Assembly: GCA_014802625.1 (NCBI GenBank)
Contig: JAAVBX010000006.1
Span: 79,277-131,482, forward strand
Source of the DNA: a bacterium
Lineage (GTDB): Bacteria > Bacteroidota > Bacteroidia > Bacteroidales > Muribaculaceae
DNA length: 52,206 nt
Direction: 5' to 3'
The position numbers and the translations under genes were made by a program. The notes beneath the pieces were generated by a model. It did not search any database. It was not told the origin of the DNA and worked only from the letters and a program-made list of their open reading frames with translations. Of this stretch, positions 35,100-40,608 are shown piece after piece. Position 1 is the stretch's first letter. Every line of letters begins with the position of its first letter.

Positions 35100-35128
35100 T
35101 ATCCTGCTGCGCGGAGCGCGGCAGGATA
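35100..35128. repeat. 13-bp near-perfect hairpin
   Basis: TATCCTGC (35100-35107) pairs with GCAGGATA (35121-35128). After a T-G wobble the inner GCGC/GCGC pairs around GGA. It lies about 180 bp past the NodB-fold gene and has no U tract on either side. Confidence 0.7.
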
Positions 35129-35156
35129 AGGAGAGGTTATATAACCAAAGGTGGTT

Positions 35157-35227
35157 GTCCAAAGACCAGAGACCATAGAACCAAAGGAAATATAATCTAT
35201 GGAACTGTGGTCTCTGGTCTATGGACC
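35157..35227 (+). repeat. Heptad-built palindromic element, copy 1
   Basis: The left arm is a run of CCANAGA heptads and the right arm their TCTNTGG complement, around an AT-rich loop of about 15 nt. GACCAGAGACCA is matched exactly by TGGTCTCTGGTC. The element recurs at 38010-38079 in the same orientation, on the other side of the four-gene cassette. Confidence 0.8.
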
Positions 35228-35274
35228 CCAATTTAGTGTCTATGGACTCCGGATAGGCATTGACTAAAAGGATA

Positions 35275-35282
35275 TATTTTTG
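35275..35282 (+). promoter_or_regulatory. -7 box of the ECF sigma operon
   Basis: TATTTTTG is an exact -7 match giving a leader of about 90 nt before the GTG start at 35376. A TTG at 35260 is too close to act as -33. Confidence 0.45.
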
Positions 35283-35375
35283 CAGATTTTTGTCACAGAC
35301 TCTACTTGGTATCGTTATCTTTACGGATTTCGGGCCGTAAGGACTGAAAATCTCTATTAATAAAAATCTCTATCT

Positions 35376-35876
35376 GTGGAAAAGTCTCGCATCACATCTG
35401 CCTTCATCCGGATACGTGTCCGCTTGCGCGGCATGGCTGCGGGCATCGTCGGAAGTCCGGAGGATGCCGAGGATGTGCTGCATGAGGCTTTCTGCAAACT
35501 ATGGACCAACCATAGGGAGGTCGCTGACGACTTGGCGGCTGAACGTCTCTCTTATACGGTAGTACGTAATACGGCGATTGACGCTTTCCGTAGACAGCGC
35601 GTACATCCGCAGGTGACCATCACTTCCGAATCTGTCGATTTGCCGGTTTCTGAAAAGAATGCTGAATCCGACCGTGAACTTTGCGATGAGCTCATAAAAC
35701 TCGCCAAGAGAGTGCTCAAACCACTGCAATATGAAGTGTTCATCCTCCACGACGTCGATGAGATTCCGTATGCGGAAGTGGCGGAGCGGCTTGACCTCTC
35801 AGAAACCAACGTGCGCAAAATCCTTAGTCGGGCGCGTAAGCAGATAAGAGATACCTACCGAAGTATGAACCCTTAA
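35376..35876 (+). CDS. ECF-type RNA polymerase sigma factor
   Basis: A 166-aa protein from a GTG start. Sigma region 2 (about 10-75) has S-P-E-D-A-E-D-V-L-H-E-A-F-C-K-L-W, the region 2.2 core-binding helix. Region 4 (about 105-160) has Q-Y-E-V-F-I-L-H-D-V-D-E-I-P-Y-A-E-V-A-E-R-L-D-L-S, a helix-turn-helix for the -35 element. It is followed 10 bp later by a one-TM protein and then two secreted proteins, the order of a Bacteroidales ECF sigma/anti-sigma locus. It probably controls its own operon and envelope targets. Confidence 0.9.
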   Translation: MEKSRITSAFIRIRVRLRGMAAGIVGSPEDAEDVLHEAFCKLWTNHREVADDLAAERLSYTVVRNTAIDAFRRQRVHPQVTITSESVDLPVSEKNAESDRELCDELIKLAKRVLKPLQYEVFILHDVDEIPYAEVAERLDLSETNVRKILSRARKQIRDTYRSMNP

Positions 35877-35886
35877 TACAGGCATT

Positions 35887-36414
35887 ATGGTAAAGAATGA
35901 AGATAAATCCCACCCCGGAAATTCCGATAAATTGTTGCTTGAGGATATAAGCCGATACTTCGACTGTCTGCTTACGGATGATGAGGAGAAATTGTTGATG
36001 AGAAGAGTGGCTTCCGCTACATTCTCTCACCCGATTCTTGATGAGGCGAGGGCGGTGATGGGCTTCACTACTATCAGGTCCGGCCGTACCGTGGTGAACA
36101 CTGCTCCGGCTTCGACGTCAAGGCATCATGTGTGGAATCGGATCGCCGGCATAGCAGTTGCAATCGCATTGATCGGGGGAGTGGTGATAGGAATAAAGGG
36201 TCTGACTGCATCACGGGTTGCTGATGATAGATGCTTCGCCTATGTCAATGGCACACGTATCGTTGAGGAGGATGAAGTACTCAGGATCATCTGCGAAGAT
36301 ATGAAAGAACTGAACGCTTGCCTTGACGGGAACCGGAGTGATATCACAGATGACATGGAGACCCTTGCTCCGGCGGCCCTCTGTTTCGAGTCTCAGTTCG
36401 ACCCTCTATTATGA
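35887..36414 (+). CDS. Probable anti-sigma factor, single-pass
   Basis: A 175-aa protein. The N-terminal cytoplasmic part (about 1-85) has the D-I-S-R-Y-F-D-C-L-L-T-D-D-E-E-K-L-L pattern seen in Bacteroidales anti-sigma-like proteins. One transmembrane helix (about 88-108, I-A-V-A-I-A-L-I-G-G-V-V-I-G) leads to a short extracytoplasmic tail with three Cys. There is no zinc-binding HxxxCxxC motif, so it is not a classical ZAS anti-sigma. The role is inferred from topology and from the sigma gene 10 bp upstream. Its TGA overlaps a possible ATG (36411) of the next gene. Confidence 0.65.
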   Translation: MVKNEDKSHPGNSDKLLLEDISRYFDCLLTDDEEKLLMRRVASATFSHPILDEARAVMGFTTIRSGRTVVNTAPASTSRHHVWNRIAGIAVAIALIGGVVIGIKGLTASRVADDRCFAYVNGTRIVEEDEVLRIICEDMKELNACLDGNRSDITDDMETLAPAALCFESQFDPLL

Positions 36415-36434
36415 AACCGTATAATACTATAATT

Positions 36435-36908
36435 ATGAACCGTTTACTGATAACCCTATTCCTTTGGCTTGCCGTGTCACTGCCGGGCTATGCCCAGTCA
36501 GGATTGGAAATCAACCGGATATTCAACGGAAGGTATGTCGATGATCCGAAGGTGTCCGAAACCATGATAAGCGGAAAAAACAAATTCCTGCAGAGTCACC
36601 GTCTTACGGTATTTGCTTCTTTCAAGGGTCCGGCTGCCGTATACAGGCAGGAGGCAGAGCATCTTGTGTTATCCGACGGGGCAAAAGCCATCGGTAAGAA
36701 TGTGCGCTATCTCGAGGGGAAACTGTACTTTGCGCTTTTCAATCTCAAGCCGGTCAACGTCAATGGCAAGAAACTAAATCGTTACATCTATTACCTGAAT
36801 AATGCGGTAGGTGGAGGGGGCAACGTACTGATCCTTTATCTTGAGGGGACCTTGTCCGAGCAGGATGCCGCCGACCTTATACAATCTCTTGCCAAGAAAG
36901 CTAAATAA
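36435..36908 (+). CDS. Small secreted protein, DUF6108-like
   Basis: A 157-aa protein from M-N-R-L-L at 36435, giving a short signal peptide cut after G-Y-A-Q. The in-frame ATG at 36411 overlaps the preceding stop as ATGA and would add eight residues. The mature ~135-aa domain (I-N-R-I-F-N-G-R, Y-L-E-G-K-L-Y-F-A-L-F) resembles DUF6108, a small periplasmic family of Bacteroidales that I recall from similar sigma loci. Function unknown. Confidence 0.6.
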   Translation: MNRLLITLFLWLAVSLPGYAQSGLEINRIFNGRYVDDPKVSETMISGKNKFLQSHRLTVFASFKGPAAVYRQEAEHLVLSDGAKAIGKNVRYLEGKLYFALFNLKPVNVNGKKLNRYIYYLNNAVGGGGNVLILYLEGTLSEQDAADLIQSLAKKAK

Positions 36909-36936
36909 AAATCCAACTATCACAACACTGAACATT

Positions 36937-37983
36937 ATGAAATCTTTTAATATAAGACTTATCCTTATCGTCTTATCTATCTTGTCTTTTGCGATATGCG
37001 GATATGCACAGACGGAGAACTGTGATACCGTATTCTCAGCTTCCTCGGCAAAAGCTCTGCGTATCACCTCCAATAACGAAAATATCTCCGTCGTTATCGA
37101 GAAATTTGACAACGGAGCGGAAAATTATTACTACAATACAGGACTTGAAGAGACAGGCGGCCACGATGACAACCTGAGTTATATGGCCCAATATCAAGAT
37201 TTAAAAGATATCAACGTCGTTGAGCAGGATAACCGGGTGCTTATTATCTCGTTCAAGGGTGAGACTGACGTGCCGAATGTCCTGAGTTTCGATATACCGG
37301 ACCCCGATAACCGCTTTGTTTCCTCTTATACCGGTGTGCGTAATCCCTATCAGGGGGTAAACCTCAGCCTAAACCGTAAGGGGAAGCACCGTTGGGATTT
37401 CGTATCATTCGGTCTCGGTCTCGGCTGGGCGACTCCACTTAATGCCCCGTCAGGGCTTGATGTGGCGATGGGGAAAAGCCTGGAGCTCAGTTGGACGATA
37501 CTTGCCGGTGTCAAATGGAATTACGGTTGCCATTCGGTCTCCGCCGGCCTGGGTCTTGATGGCAAGTGGTTCAGCTTAAAAAAAGGTCATTATTTCAATA
37601 AAGAGGCTGATGGCCGGATATCTACACAACCCTTCTCTGAGATGCAGGAGAGGGGGGCCTCTTCACTCCGATTCTTCAGCTTGCAGGTGCCCATGCTTTA
37701 TGATTTGCAGCTTGGACGCGCACGTAGGTTCGGGTTTGCAGTCGGACCTGTCGTCAATTTCAACGTTACCGGGCATCTCCAGACCTCTTACCGTATCGGG
37801 GACAGCGACTATTCGGTTGTGACGCGACATATCGGGCAGCGTCCGGTGACAGTGGATTTTCTTGGTGTCGTACATTATAGCCCTATTGCTCTTTACGTGC
37901 GGTATTCTCCGATGCAGATGATGAAAAAGTCAGCCGGGCTCTCGTTCTCGACCCTTTCCACAGGCATAATGCTTTTCTTCTAA
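36937..37983 (+). CDS. Outer-membrane beta-barrel protein, last gene of the sigma cassette
   Basis: A 348-aa protein from M-K-S-F at 36937. The longer open frame to 36841 overlaps the previous gene and precedes the signal peptide, so it is not used. The signal peptide ends at G-Y-A-Q (about 25). Residues 30-150 are a soluble beta-rich domain and 160-348 a porin_family/OMP_b-brl-like barrel with alternating strands, ending I-M-L-F-F with a terminal Phe. It could be an envelope sensor or a target of the sigma system. Confidence 0.7.
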   Translation: MKSFNIRLILIVLSILSFAICGYAQTENCDTVFSASSAKALRITSNNENISVVIEKFDNGAENYYYNTGLEETGGHDDNLSYMAQYQDLKDINVVEQDNRVLIISFKGETDVPNVLSFDIPDPDNRFVSSYTGVRNPYQGVNLSLNRKGKHRWDFVSFGLGLGWATPLNAPSGLDVAMGKSLELSWTILAGVKWNYGCHSVSAGLGLDGKWFSLKKGHYFNKEADGRISTQPFSEMQERGASSLRFFSLQVPMLYDLQLGRARRFGFAVGPVVNFNVTGHLQTSYRIGDSDYSVVTRHIGQRPVTVDFLGVVHYSPIALYVRYSPMQMMKKSAGLSFSTLSTGIMLFF

Positions 37984-38009
37984 TCATTGTCCATAGCGCC
38001 AAAGAGGCA

Positions 38010-38079
38010 GTCAAAAGACCAAAGACCATAGAACCAAGGAAATAAACCCTATGGAACTGTGGTCTATGGTCTTTGGACC
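38010..38079 (+). repeat. Heptad-built palindromic element, copy 2
   Basis: It has the same structure, length and orientation as 35157-35227. The shared core includes GACCATAGAACCAA and TATGGAACTGTGGTCT. The heptads differ (AAAG versus AGAG on the left), with matching changes on the right arm in at least one pairing register. Confidence 0.8.
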
Positions 38080-38272: not shown

Positions 38273-38312
38273 AGAGAGTGTTTTAATTCAAACACACTCT
38301 TAGAGTGTGTTT
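38273..38312. repeat. AGAGTGTTT palindromic element
   Basis: AGAGAGTGTTT, TTAATT, then AAACACACTCT is followed by a 10-bp perfect stem AAACACACTC/GAGTGTGTTT with a TTA loop (38290-38312). The same motif recurs at 38487-38500 over the GH97 stop codon, and related palindromes lie at 51457-51483. Confidence 0.7.
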
Positions 38313-38496
38313 CCTTTTAAACCGTTTTAACGTCTTTAAATAACATAATCAAGACTTGATTTCATCACAAAGAATCTTTTGGGTTATTTTTCAAAGATTT
38401 CATCGGTCATGATGCCCGCATCACTCCCTCTTCATCTTTGGAAAATAACTCCAAAATCTCTCTTTGTGCTAAAATCATTTAAAAGTAAACACACTC

Positions 38497-40608
38497 TTAG
38501 CGGACAGGGGTGAGGCGGATGGCCGCACCGCCGCCTGAGGCGAGGGGCTGACGGAGCACGCTCTTGGAGTCGACCTTCTGAGTGCGGATGCGGTAGGCCT
38601 GCGGATTGGTTTTCCAATCGGCGTCGGGAGCATCCTCATAGATGGTGGCCTCGAATTTCTGACCTTTGGGGAGGAACGAAAGATCGATCACAGCCGTGCG
38701 GGGTGTCTCATCCGTGATTGCTCCGACATACCAGTCGTCGGAATGCTTGTCCTGACGGGCAACGGTGATGAAACGCGCAGGTTCGGCTTCGAGATAGCGG
38801 GAGTCGCTCCAGTCTACGGGTACATCCTCGATGAACTGGAATGCGTCGGGGAAACGCTCGTAGTTCTCCGGGAGGTCACAGGCCATCTGCATCGGCGAGG
38901 GCATCGTCAGATAGAGGGCGAGCTGACGCGCGAGAGTTGTGCCTGCCTGCGAATCCTTACCTTCGTTGTAATAGCTGAGACGTGTCTCGAAGAGACCGGG
39001 CGTATAGTCCATCGGACCACCCTTCAGACGGGTGAAGGGGAGGAGCGCGGTATGCGAGGGGGGATTGCCGCCCATAGACTCGAACTCACCGCCGCGAGCT
39101 GACTCCTGTGCAAGCCAGTTGGGCCATGTACGGCAGAGTCCGGTGGGACGGGGAGCCTCGTGACTGTCGACCATAATCTTATAGTCGGCTGCACGCTTGG
39201 CTACGTCAAGAACATGGTCGACCATCCACTGCGACGTGTGATGTTCCGAACGCGGGATGATCGCCCCGACATAACCGGTCTTCACGGCATCGTAGCCGTT
39301 ATCTTTCATAAACTGAAAAGCGCGGTCGAGCTGAAGAGCATAGTCAGCGGCGTTGGCGGCGGTCTCATGGTGCATAATAAGCTTCACACCCTTTGATGCC
39401 GCATAGTCGCGGAGCTCGTCGACATCGAAGTCGGGATACGCCTTGTCGAAGAGGAACTGGCGGTTCTTGCGGTAGCTTGCCCAGTCTTCCCAACCTTCGT
39501 TCCAACCCTCCACGAGCACACCCTCTATGCCGTGGTCAGCGGCGAAGTCGATATACTTCTTCACGTTGGCCGTATTGGCGGGATGGCGGCCGTTGGGTTT
39601 GAGGGTCGTATAATCGGTCACACCCGGTTTGGCGAGATAATCGTCGGAATAAGCCCAGGTCTTCTGATTTCCGGTGAACATCTCCCACCATACACCCATG
39701 AATTTCATGGGTTTGATCCATGAGGTATCCTCAATCGCGCAAGGCTCGTTGAGGTTGAGGATAAGCTGTGAGGCGAGGATATCGCGGGCATCGTCGCTGA
39801 CGATGAGAGTGCGCCAGGGTGTCTGGAAAGGATACTGGAGGTATCCTGCCACCCCGAGACGATCAGGCACGAGATGAGCCTTCATGTTGTTCTCCTGCGT
39901 GTCGACATCGAGGAGCATCGCGGGGTAATTGACCAGCGCGGCCTCATGGACATTGACATAGACCGGGTCGTCGGTCTTCAGCAGCATCGGAGTCTGGATA
40001 GTATTTCCCCCGGTGCGCTGAGCTTCGGAATGGCGATGGTAGTTGCCCATCGCTTCCGGCAGACTGCTGAAGGTAGTCTCCGACCATAGATATTCGTCGG
40101 TGTCATAATCGCCGGGGATACAGAAAAGCTTGTGGTCGCCGTTGAAATTGAATTCCGTGGCCTCATCCTTGAGAGTCAGATATGAACCCTGCTGTTGTTT
40201 GGGAAACTCATAGCGGAAACCGAGTCCGTCGTCGAAGAGGCGGAAACGCACTGTCATCTCGCGCTCCGGCTTGTCAGCCTTGAGATTGACGGCCATCTCG
40301 CGGAAATTATCGCGGATTTCGGCGTATTCGCCCCATACGGGTTGCCATGTGCGGTCGGTCGAGAGAGTGTCGACCGATACGATTTCAAAACCCTCCGTGA
40401 AGTCACGCTCATCACCTTTCAGACCGAGACGGCTGCGGTTCACGAGATTCTTCCCCTTATAATCGAGCGAATATGTGGGTTGTCCTTCGGGAGTCAGGCC
40501 GAATGTCAGGCTGAGGTCGCCCGACGGTGATGAGATATTCTGCGCGGAGGCACCCGTCTGCAGGGCGCCTGCCACGCACAATAGAGAGAAAATAACAGTA
40601 GTTTTCAT
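38497..40608 (-). CDS. susB: GH97 alpha-glucosidase, SusB-type
   Basis: A 703-aa periplasmic enzyme with a cleaved signal peptide (A-S-A-Q near residue 23; no lipobox). It has GH97 order, with G-V-L-V-E-G-W-N-E-G-W-E-D-W, then D-S-H-E-A-P-R-P-T-G with Glu near 484, E-S-A-R-G-G-E-F and P-F-T-R-L-K-G-G-P-M-D-Y-T-P-G. These are the inverting SusB-like features. It hydrolyses alpha-1,4 and other alpha-glucosidic ends of imported maltodextrins. Its ATG overlaps the GH13 stop as ATGA, so the two are translationally coupled; it is the last gene of the operon. Confidence 0.95.
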   Translation of the reverse strand: MKTTVIFSLLCVAGALQTGASAQNISSPSGDLSLTFGLTPEGQPTYSLDYKGKNLVNRSRLGLKGDERDFTEGFEIVSVDTLSTDRTWQPVWGEYAEIRDNFREMAVNLKADKPEREMTVRFRLFDDGLGFRYEFPKQQQGSYLTLKDEATEFNFNGDHKLFCIPGDYDTDEYLWSETTFSSLPEAMGNYHRHSEAQRTGGNTIQTPMLLKTDDPVYVNVHEAALVNYPAMLLDVDTQENNMKAHLVPDRLGVAGYLQYPFQTPWRTLIVSDDARDILASQLILNLNEPCAIEDTSWIKPMKFMGVWWEMFTGNQKTWAYSDDYLAKPGVTDYTTLKPNGRHPANTANVKKYIDFAADHGIEGVLVEGWNEGWEDWASYRKNRQFLFDKAYPDFDVDELRDYAASKGVKLIMHHETAANAADYALQLDRAFQFMKDNGYDAVKTGYVGAIIPRSEHHTSQWMVDHVLDVAKRAADYKIMVDSHEAPRPTGLCRTWPNWLAQESARGGEFESMGGNPPSHTALLPFTRLKGGPMDYTPGLFETRLSYYNEGKDSQAGTTLARQLALYLTMPSPMQMACDLPENYERFPDAFQFIEDVPVDWSDSRYLEAEPARFITVARQDKHSDDWYVGAITDETPRTAVIDLSFLPKGQKFEATIYEDAPDADWKTNPQAYRIRTQKVDSKSVLRQPLASGGGAAIRLTPVR

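Follow-up and report, generated by a model that had tools for sequence, protein, structure and literature searches.

Palindromic heptad repeats in a Muribaculaceae lineage and their association with genes of the predicted nuclease GxxExxY

Two palindromic elements built of heptads, here named W1 and W2, lie in a stretch of 52,206 nucleotides from a bacterium of the Muribaculaceae (Bacteroidales; GenBank assembly GCA_014802625.1, contig JAAVBX010000006.1, positions 79,277 to 131,482 of the forward strand), and this whole stretch is called the window. They belong to a dispersed repeat family with clustered pairs, and repeats of this architecture are associated, physically and genome-wide, with genes for GxxExxY proteins that have an intact predicted nuclease site. 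We regard it as probable, with considerable room for doubt, that W1 and W2 are copies, lacking an open reading frame (ORF), of a repeat resembling the repetitive extragenic palindromes (REP) with GxxExxY as predicted partner enzyme: the nuclease would cut the heptads and repair would spread the arms. Their putative assignment to the GxxExxY-linked kind rests on the shared heptads and architecture. A wider proposal stands at even odds in our judgement: GxxExxY proteins would serve a widespread and so far unrecognised class of selfish palindromic repeats as their enzymes, encoded in the loop of a palindrome or between palindromes, and their cutting would spread the repeats as copies without the gene. 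Such a system would be an analogue of the REPtron with an unrelated enzyme.

W1 (35157..35227, plus strand, 71 bp) has arms at about 35157-35186 and about 35197-35227 around an AT-rich loop. W2 (38010..38079, plus strand, 70 bp), also with an AT-rich loop, is located between convergent genes. In both elements CCANAGA heptads are opposed to TCTNTGG, and the two have the same orientation with 81% and 89% identity over two ungapped stretches. A sequence-only reading of the window had described two such elements of like orientation with opposed heptad arms, and the sequence, a repeat search and the folds confirmed this. The predicted RNA folds reached -42.0 kcal/mol for W1 (z -9.80) and -35.2 kcal/mol for W2 (z -8.50), each equalled by 0 of 200 shuffles. 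Allowing up to two mismatches, CCANAGACCANAGA matched the window ten times versus a shuffle mean of 3.4, and ten or more matches occurred in 0 of 100 shuffles; eight of the ten were inside W1 and W2, one adjoined W1 and one was elsewhere. A degenerate extra half-unit (AACCAAAGG..., 35140..35156, plus strand) was recognised upstream of W1 in the sequence and the repeat search, and a degenerate extra reverse heptad (GTCTATGGACTCC, 35237..35252, plus strand) downstream of it by repeat and pattern searches. An orthologue of W1 is present in the sister-genome locus L049. Rfam gave no match at W1 or W2; the gathering-score matches in the window were only the signal recognition particle RNA and two tRNAs.

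The assembly holding the window (G000, 1.88 Mb, 69% complete) and its sister genome (G199, 66% complete) carry many such arrays. With one mismatch, CCANAGACCANAGA had 50 matches in G000 versus 13 for the backwards pattern. At least 13 array blocks were counted in G000, eleven plus two round a GxxExxY gene, and at least 16 in G199, where contig C52 was excluded as a repetition of contig C2 at 98% with fewer units; both counts are lower bounds because only listed matches were read. In many blocks the repeating unit measures about 35-45 bp and has about four heptads; the units either share one direction or are followed by a loop and inverted units. Among the genomes searched, the CCANAGA family was carried by G000 and G199 only, with single matches in 4 of 109 other congeners: AGTCCATAGACCA occurred in 6 of 111 genomes of the genus, eight times in G000, 28 times in G199 and once in each of four others, TAGTCCATAGACCA in 0 of 294 other Bacteroidales genomes sampled, and TCTNTGGTCTNTGG once or twice in 12 of 148 other genomes sampled from the family, about the same as its reversed control. 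The congener G167 has four perfect TCTATGG heptads in tandem (L094:4159-4185), and no further arrays were noticed in it.

A random scatter of the element, which the sequence-only reading had named as a point that would count against it, does not hold: at least three neighbour pairs lay within 3 kb among 11 blocks (simulated P 0.00035, with the genome treated as one sequence and the 3 kb limit set after the spacing was known). Other array pairs bracket a flavin reductase gene, a HipB-like gene with the start of a truncated HipA (named by eye), a fimbrillin gene and a GxxExxY gene. In G000 each of the bracketing pairs (4 of 4) consisted of reciprocal best matches; in G199 this held for 3 of 5. 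W1 and W2 were reciprocal best matches among the 13 array blocks of G000, the lead of W1 being narrow (51.0 versus 50.5), and in G199 the best match of W1 was a different block and not W2. Since pair members are mostly mutual best matches, the brackets look mostly like local copies.

Three array loci had features of their own. On contig C9 of G000 (L126:611-1070, counterpart L090) arrays bracket a HipB-like helix-turn-helix gene and, after it, the beginning of a frame that by eye resembles HipA and ends at the array as though truncated by it. Contigs C9 and C20 of G000 have the same start of about 119 bp (L033:1-119, L037:1-119) adjoining arrays, an assembly break at the repeat. Contigs C2 and C52 of G199 (L130, L135) carry a fimbrillin operon as two alleles (98%), perhaps because the assembly combines two strains, and the number of array units differs on both sides of the fimbrillin gene.

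In both genomes with CCANAGA arrays a GxxExxY gene is enclosed by such arrays. On contig C21 of G199 two arrays surround the gene of a GxxExxY protein of 127 amino acids in the order palindrome, gene, palindrome, and on contig C20 of G000 the sole match to PF13366 also lies between arrays of CCANAGA-type heptads. The family PF13366 was present in 34 of 111 genomes of the genus. The left and right 500 bp of these GxxExxY loci shared more than 5% of their 8-mers in 32 of 45 cases versus 1 of 68 controls (Fisher 1.4e-16; flavin reductase 1/27, DUF6108 0/27, deacetylase 0/14); 48 loci had been fetched, and the 45 usable ones include those of G000 and G199. This test was devised after repeats had been seen in 30 of the 48 loci, and the order-level tests came later, on new loci. 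The repeats near GxxExxY vary by genome (CACAGAG, CGCAGAG, ACAGGAG, GCAGAAC and others). By a looser and noisier measure, a heptad present at least four times in the flanks, 63 of 78 GxxExxY loci were positive versus 17 of 70 controls. At two loci (L129 and L216) the GxxExxY units adjoin the 3' ends of genes with a common C-terminus in similar-looking gene clusters; the two GxxExxY genes themselves are only about 71% identical as DNA, and their arrays have different sequences.

Across the Bacteroidales, PF13366 was found in 169 of 295 genomes sampled, with up to 12 matches each. The 30 best-scoring loci were fetched, and 14 of the 28 usable ones shared more than 5% of 8-mers between their flanks. 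The GxxExxY position ranked in the top 1% of its own stretch at 10 of 20 loci and in the top 5% at 12 of 20 with 200-bp flanks, and at 9 and 12 of 20 with 300-bp flanks; 19 of these stretches had 19.9 kb and one had 10 kb, and the set overlaps that of 30 loci. Ranked by enrichment beside GxxExxY at the 20 loci, CANAGA was the eighth of 2040 gapped hexamers and CNCAGA the first. Four or more CANAGA occurred at 9 of 20 and 15 of 30 loci versus 3.5% of 1667 background windows. Flanking arms were inverted at 25 and direct at 24 of 84 GxxExxY loci, each versus 0 of 70 controls, and at least one of four repeat signs was present at 44 of 84 loci versus 1 of 70 controls.

Copies away from the gene were counted with the pattern CACAGAGN{0,3}CRCRGAG in 80 genomes hand-picked from the 295, all at least 94% complete. 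A CACAGAG-type pair was present in 29 of 40 genomes with GxxExxY versus 5 of 40 without (Fisher 7e-8), at least three pairs in 20 of 40 versus 1 of 40, and the totals were 548 versus 28 pairs. Reversed-pattern controls gave 26 and 4 matches, 16 of these in the genome G332. G438 had 80 matches. Of 20 dispersed loci of about 2-3.6 kb, read in four genomes, just L304, chosen for its GxxExxY match, had one; ORF-less copies are therefore usual. Measured copies had 67-110 bp in 18 of 19 cases, the remaining one being a 38-bp single arm. In the 16 of 19 loci that were parsed, arms had up to four heptads, spaced 10-11 bp in 78 of 80 steps. Seventeen of 21 repeat clusters in the 20 loci had no overlap with an ORF of at least 70 amino acids. 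Inspection by eye revealed no constant tetranucleotide before the 19 copies.

Named records with GxxExxY were six of the seven plasmid records with a match, the match in the seventh being partial. A heptad palindrome carries the gene in its loop in three of them, Bacteroides finegoldii (NZ_OY725952.1), Bernardetia (NZ_CP147018.1) and Sphingomonas parapaucimobilis (NZ_CP155749.1); in the Sphingomonas record the right arm falls inside the 3' end of the GxxExxY frame. The gene of Gemmatirosa kalamazoonensis is flanked by two palindromes, and at least 79 similar places occur on two replicons. The record of Prevotella nigrescens has repeats of other kinds, that of Treponema saccharophilum no repeats. 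Overall, the arrangement of GxxExxY and palindrome was present in many Bacteroidales; outside this order it was seen in Gemmatimonadota, Alphaproteobacteria and Cytophagales, with a single record for each. The region fabD-arm-GxxExxY-arm-fabG of S. parapaucimobilis measures 2165 bp end to end; across the eight records listed next, out of 257, the matched span was 1686-1702 bp, and in S. paeninsulae fabD and the presumed start of fabG are about 32 bp apart. The comparison hints at an empty site for a GxxExxY unit, but these relatives have no more than 68-72% identity. One GxxExxY protein was searched against phages and had no match.

The GxxExxY protein matches PF13366/TIGR04256 and has the PD-(D/E)XK catalytic residues: each of the 70 proteins compared has E27, Y30, D66, E76 and Q90, and 69 of 70 have K78 and Y94 (8 of 78 loci were left out for X, length or a missing end). 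A structure model was obtained with a predicted local distance difference test score (pLDDT) of 94.2 and a predicted template modelling score (pTM) of 0.87. The sole solved folds below E 0.001 were four chains of SSO0001 (4ic1), which we take to be a Cas4 protein. LHK-Exo, Hjc resolvases, the Cas4 protein Pcal_0546 and lambda exonuclease followed at E 0.002-0.005, the Hjc matches spanning E 0.002-0.03. Cas4 profiles match the protein weakly, and a sequence search of the PDB with the GxxExxY profile yielded 0 chains at E 0.01. By these residues and the model, GxxExxY is a small PD-(D/E)XK nuclease with an intact predicted site and a Cas4-like fold. It resembles Cas4 and other PD-(D/E)XK nucleases in fold and active-site residues and differs from Cas4 as a single small domain of about 125 amino acids.

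We infer that GxxExxY is the cognate enzyme of the repeats flanking it. Units of the family would consist of heptads with a CANAGA-like core, and the full form would hold the GxxExxY gene in the palindrome loop or between two palindromes. The nuclease would most likely recognise and cut the repeats as duplex heptads, as a cruciform or as a single-strand hairpin, and repair or template switching would copy the arms to intergenic sites near and far. Copies close by would give rise to bracketing sister pairs, gene-free copies would accumulate as REPs do, and bracketed host genes would be occasional passengers. Slippage, in-place flipping and unequal exchange may later alter the unit number. The same fold would also suit a guardian, a resolvase-like enzyme acting on repeats that spread by another route, whose cruciforms it would trim or resolve: SSO0001 and, more weakly, Hjc resolvases are fold neighbours, the palindromes could extrude cruciforms, and the genome G302 has repeats with GxxExxY not detected. 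We consider this role unlikely. Both the position of the gene, in the palindrome loop or between palindromes, and the Sphingomonas case, which resembles an inserted arm-gene-arm unit, would rather be expected of an element with an enzyme of its own.

The sequence-only reading had stated that differences between the copies tend to be matched on both arms, so that pairing seemed selected. This failed in a comparison of the arms of 12 palindromes, which represent seven sites, five of them seen in both G000 and G199. The variable fourth base of the heptad (N) was matched between the arms in 21 of 44 cases, with 17.0 of 44 expected from the same counts under independence; the other positions agreed in 278 of 287. 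The variable base pairs of CACAGAG palindromes (16 of 19 loci parsed) were T-A 30, C-A 12, T-G 8, A-A 1 and C-G 0. No compensatory changes in the stems were observed at the variable base of CCANAGA and CACAGAG palindromes, so the covariation check which that reading had proposed was negative in two repeat families. Single breaks or repairs of pairing do occur, since one W2 pair is mispaired in the window and paired in the sister genome. Between G000 and G199, 8 of 132 N positions differed versus 14 of 783 other heptad positions (Fisher 0.008) and 37 of 1629 other block bases; the definition of heptads on G000, allowing a single mismatch at most, slightly favours low heptad divergence. The heptad sequence, rather than base pairing, seems to be kept. 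A structured RNA made on both sides of the cassette, also envisaged by the sequence-only reading, found no support in arms without covariation at the variable base. As a terminator or mRNA-stabilising hairpin, with pairing selected at gene ends, the element would agree with the strong folds of W1 and W2 and with the start of W2 27 bp past the last base of the barrel gene, between convergent genes. However, the variable base agrees in just those 21 of 44 cases, the CACAGAG palindromes likewise lack covariation, some arrays are unidirectional, and one array (L031) is located between a gene and a tRNA that are read away from each other; such an RNA is very improbable.

Several results weigh against the reading of W1 and W2 as copies of a GxxExxY-linked repeat. 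No GxxExxY gene is beside them. Half of the usable order-level GxxExxY loci fail the 5% sharing, 8 of 20 are outside the top 5% of their own stretch, and a repeat detected by Tandem Repeats Finder (TRF) was present at 24 of 30 GxxExxY loci versus 26 of 70 controls, a weaker separation. The 80-genome comparison ignores phylogeny and genome size, and the set with GxxExxY has the larger genomes; in it, 11 of 40 genomes with GxxExxY had no CACAGAG pair, G332 had 25 matches alongside its 16 control matches, and G302 had 23 matches and no PF13366 match. Because many G302 matches are near contig ends, we guess that its GxxExxY gene may be unassembled. No target-site duplication was detected at 19 dispersed copies, with a mean flank match of 3.95 versus 3.88 in re-paired flanks and matches of six or more at 2 of 19 copies versus 9%. 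Neither gain nor loss of an array was seen between G000 and G199: 11 of 11 tested G000 blocks, those other than the blocks round GxxExxY, have an occupied counterpart in G199, and 5 of the 16 G199 blocks were without a fetched G000 counterpart and outside the comparison. Counterpart blocks differ only in copy number, substitutions and one flipped hairpin. This hairpin, C5a (L032:3778-3852 versus L087:3970-4044), is reverse-complemented between the sister genomes bar one base, with the loop AATCTTAAAAAT in one and ATTTTTAAGATT in the other, and may be a flip in place or a conversion from a neighbour.

The absence of target duplications and of insertion polymorphism between G000 and G199 would be expected of neutral minisatellites, whose heptads would originate through slippage and inverted template switching and then drift where they are, with GxxExxY genes merely tolerating such regions or lying in them by chance. 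Copy number at the same site indeed differs between the sister genomes (C7 has 275 more bases in G199) and between the two 98% alleles of G199. But slippage does not place the same unit at a dozen distant sites and does not tie repeats to one gene family across an order, and the non-N positions of the heptads diverge less (14/783) than N (8/132). We regard neutral minisatellites as an improbable explanation and prefer the GxxExxY-linked repeat.

Between W1 and W2 lie, all on the plus strand, an extracytoplasmic function (ECF) sigma factor gene (35376..35876; PF08281/PF04542), a putative anti-sigma gene (35887..36414), a DUF6108 gene (36411..36908; PF19603, E 2.8e-12) and a putative outer-membrane barrel gene (36937..37983). 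The four-gene unit of the sequence-only reading is thus present, with the sigma factor and DUF6108 recognised by Pfam; the two other genes had no Pfam match, are conserved in position, and owe the one transmembrane segment and the barrel, respectively, to that reading. W1 and W2 are not part of the cassette, whose genes we regard as bracketed passengers outside the element, and effects of the elements on the sigma operon are probably incidental. Within the named collection, the DUF6108 protein was closest (99%) to one from Bacteroides sp. Mgla_MAG_41-bin_0 (L049), and DUF6108 matches were found in 34 of 101 genomes of the genus. The order sigma factor, anti-sigma, DUF6108 and barrel is kept in 11 of 11 loci of relatives. 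Within the stretches fetched, the flank genes of the window were beside the cassette in 0 of these 11 (L114 begins at a contig end), and brackets were absent from 10 of 10 usable loci, with a left-right 8-mer sharing of 0.3-4.4% versus 10.7% in the window and 9.1% in L049. A deacetylase-like flank gene had matches in 15 of 111 genomes, and 14 such loci, inspected over up to 1.5 kb per side, held no further window gene. Gene order round the flavin reductase is scrambled across the genus as well, so the changed context of the cassette means little, and synteny was discarded as an uninformative argument for cassette mobility.

That W1 and W2 moved the sigma cassette as a composite unit, as the sequence-only reading had put forward, would agree with flanking by similar elements in the same orientation and with neighbour genes that differ in relatives. 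The cassette is, however, unbracketed in all ten usable loci of relatives with its gene order intact, unrelated genes are bracketed too, and the scrambled flavin reductase neighbourhood deprives the altered context of weight; we consider such a movement highly unlikely. Beyond W2, a 202-bp stretch (38299-38500 of the window) has 31-nt terminal inverted repeats (84%) with AAACACACTCTTAG at both ends, similar to a miniature inverted-repeat transposable element (MITE), and is mostly absent from the otherwise 98% identical sister locus L049.

Of the proposed REP- or MITE-like nature of the element, the dispersed palindromic family was retained, and as such it is a good candidate for an undescribed system. 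The Y1/REP transposase PF01797 was not found in the incomplete genomes G000 and G199 and was found in 5 of 5 other congeners searched; a Y1 enzyme or REP-associated tyrosine transposase (RAYT) was therefore dropped as repeat partner in these two genomes. The lack of target-site duplications at the 19 dispersed copies is unlike a MITE or a composite transposon. In the accessible text of PMC8266576, the REPtron is described as REP palindromes or bacterial interspersed mosaic elements (BIME) together with TnpA-REP (RAYT), a mostly single-copy HUH Y1 enzyme, and the REP as a palindrome of 20-50 nt preceded by the conserved tetranucleotide GTAG. Measured by that text, the heptad repeats are similar in being short, intergenic, palindromic, dispersed and many per genome, in having the gene of a dedicated predicted DNA-cutting enzyme beside or flanked by the same palindromes, GxxExxY replacing TnpA-REP, and in an abundance that tracks the presence of this gene. 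They differ in that GxxExxY is of the PD-(D/E)XK type and not HUH Y1, in arms that are heptad arrays of about 30-45 bp without a GTAG tag (by eye), and in a gene that can sit in the palindrome loop and is often multicopy. Intergenic direct repeats of the heptamer TAACTGA have been reported from Beggiatoaceae, Cyanobacteria and Bacteroidetes (MacGregor 2015, PMC4679880). As far as the accessible text of that paper extends, they share with the CCANAGA family the intergenic heptamer arrays, long in some Bacteroidetes, and contigs ending in repeats, but are mostly direct, consist of one fixed heptamer and have no link to GxxExxY. In the literature covered by our search, with subscription journals mostly outside it, no link of GxxExxY to repeats was found, including the accessible parts of PMC8934634 and PMC12306157; GxxExxY and PF13366/TIGR04256 were rarely named and 'PDDEXK_3' never.

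GxxExxY genes are common in Bacteroidales, yet hardly treated in the literature searched, and the tie to heptad palindromes gives them a testable role. The link to repeats may explain assembly breaks beside GxxExxY genes. Brackets of sister repeats, as around the sigma-factor cassette, need not imply a mobile cassette. If true, the action of GxxExxY on its repeats would represent a second route for the spread of REP-like repeats besides HUH transposases.

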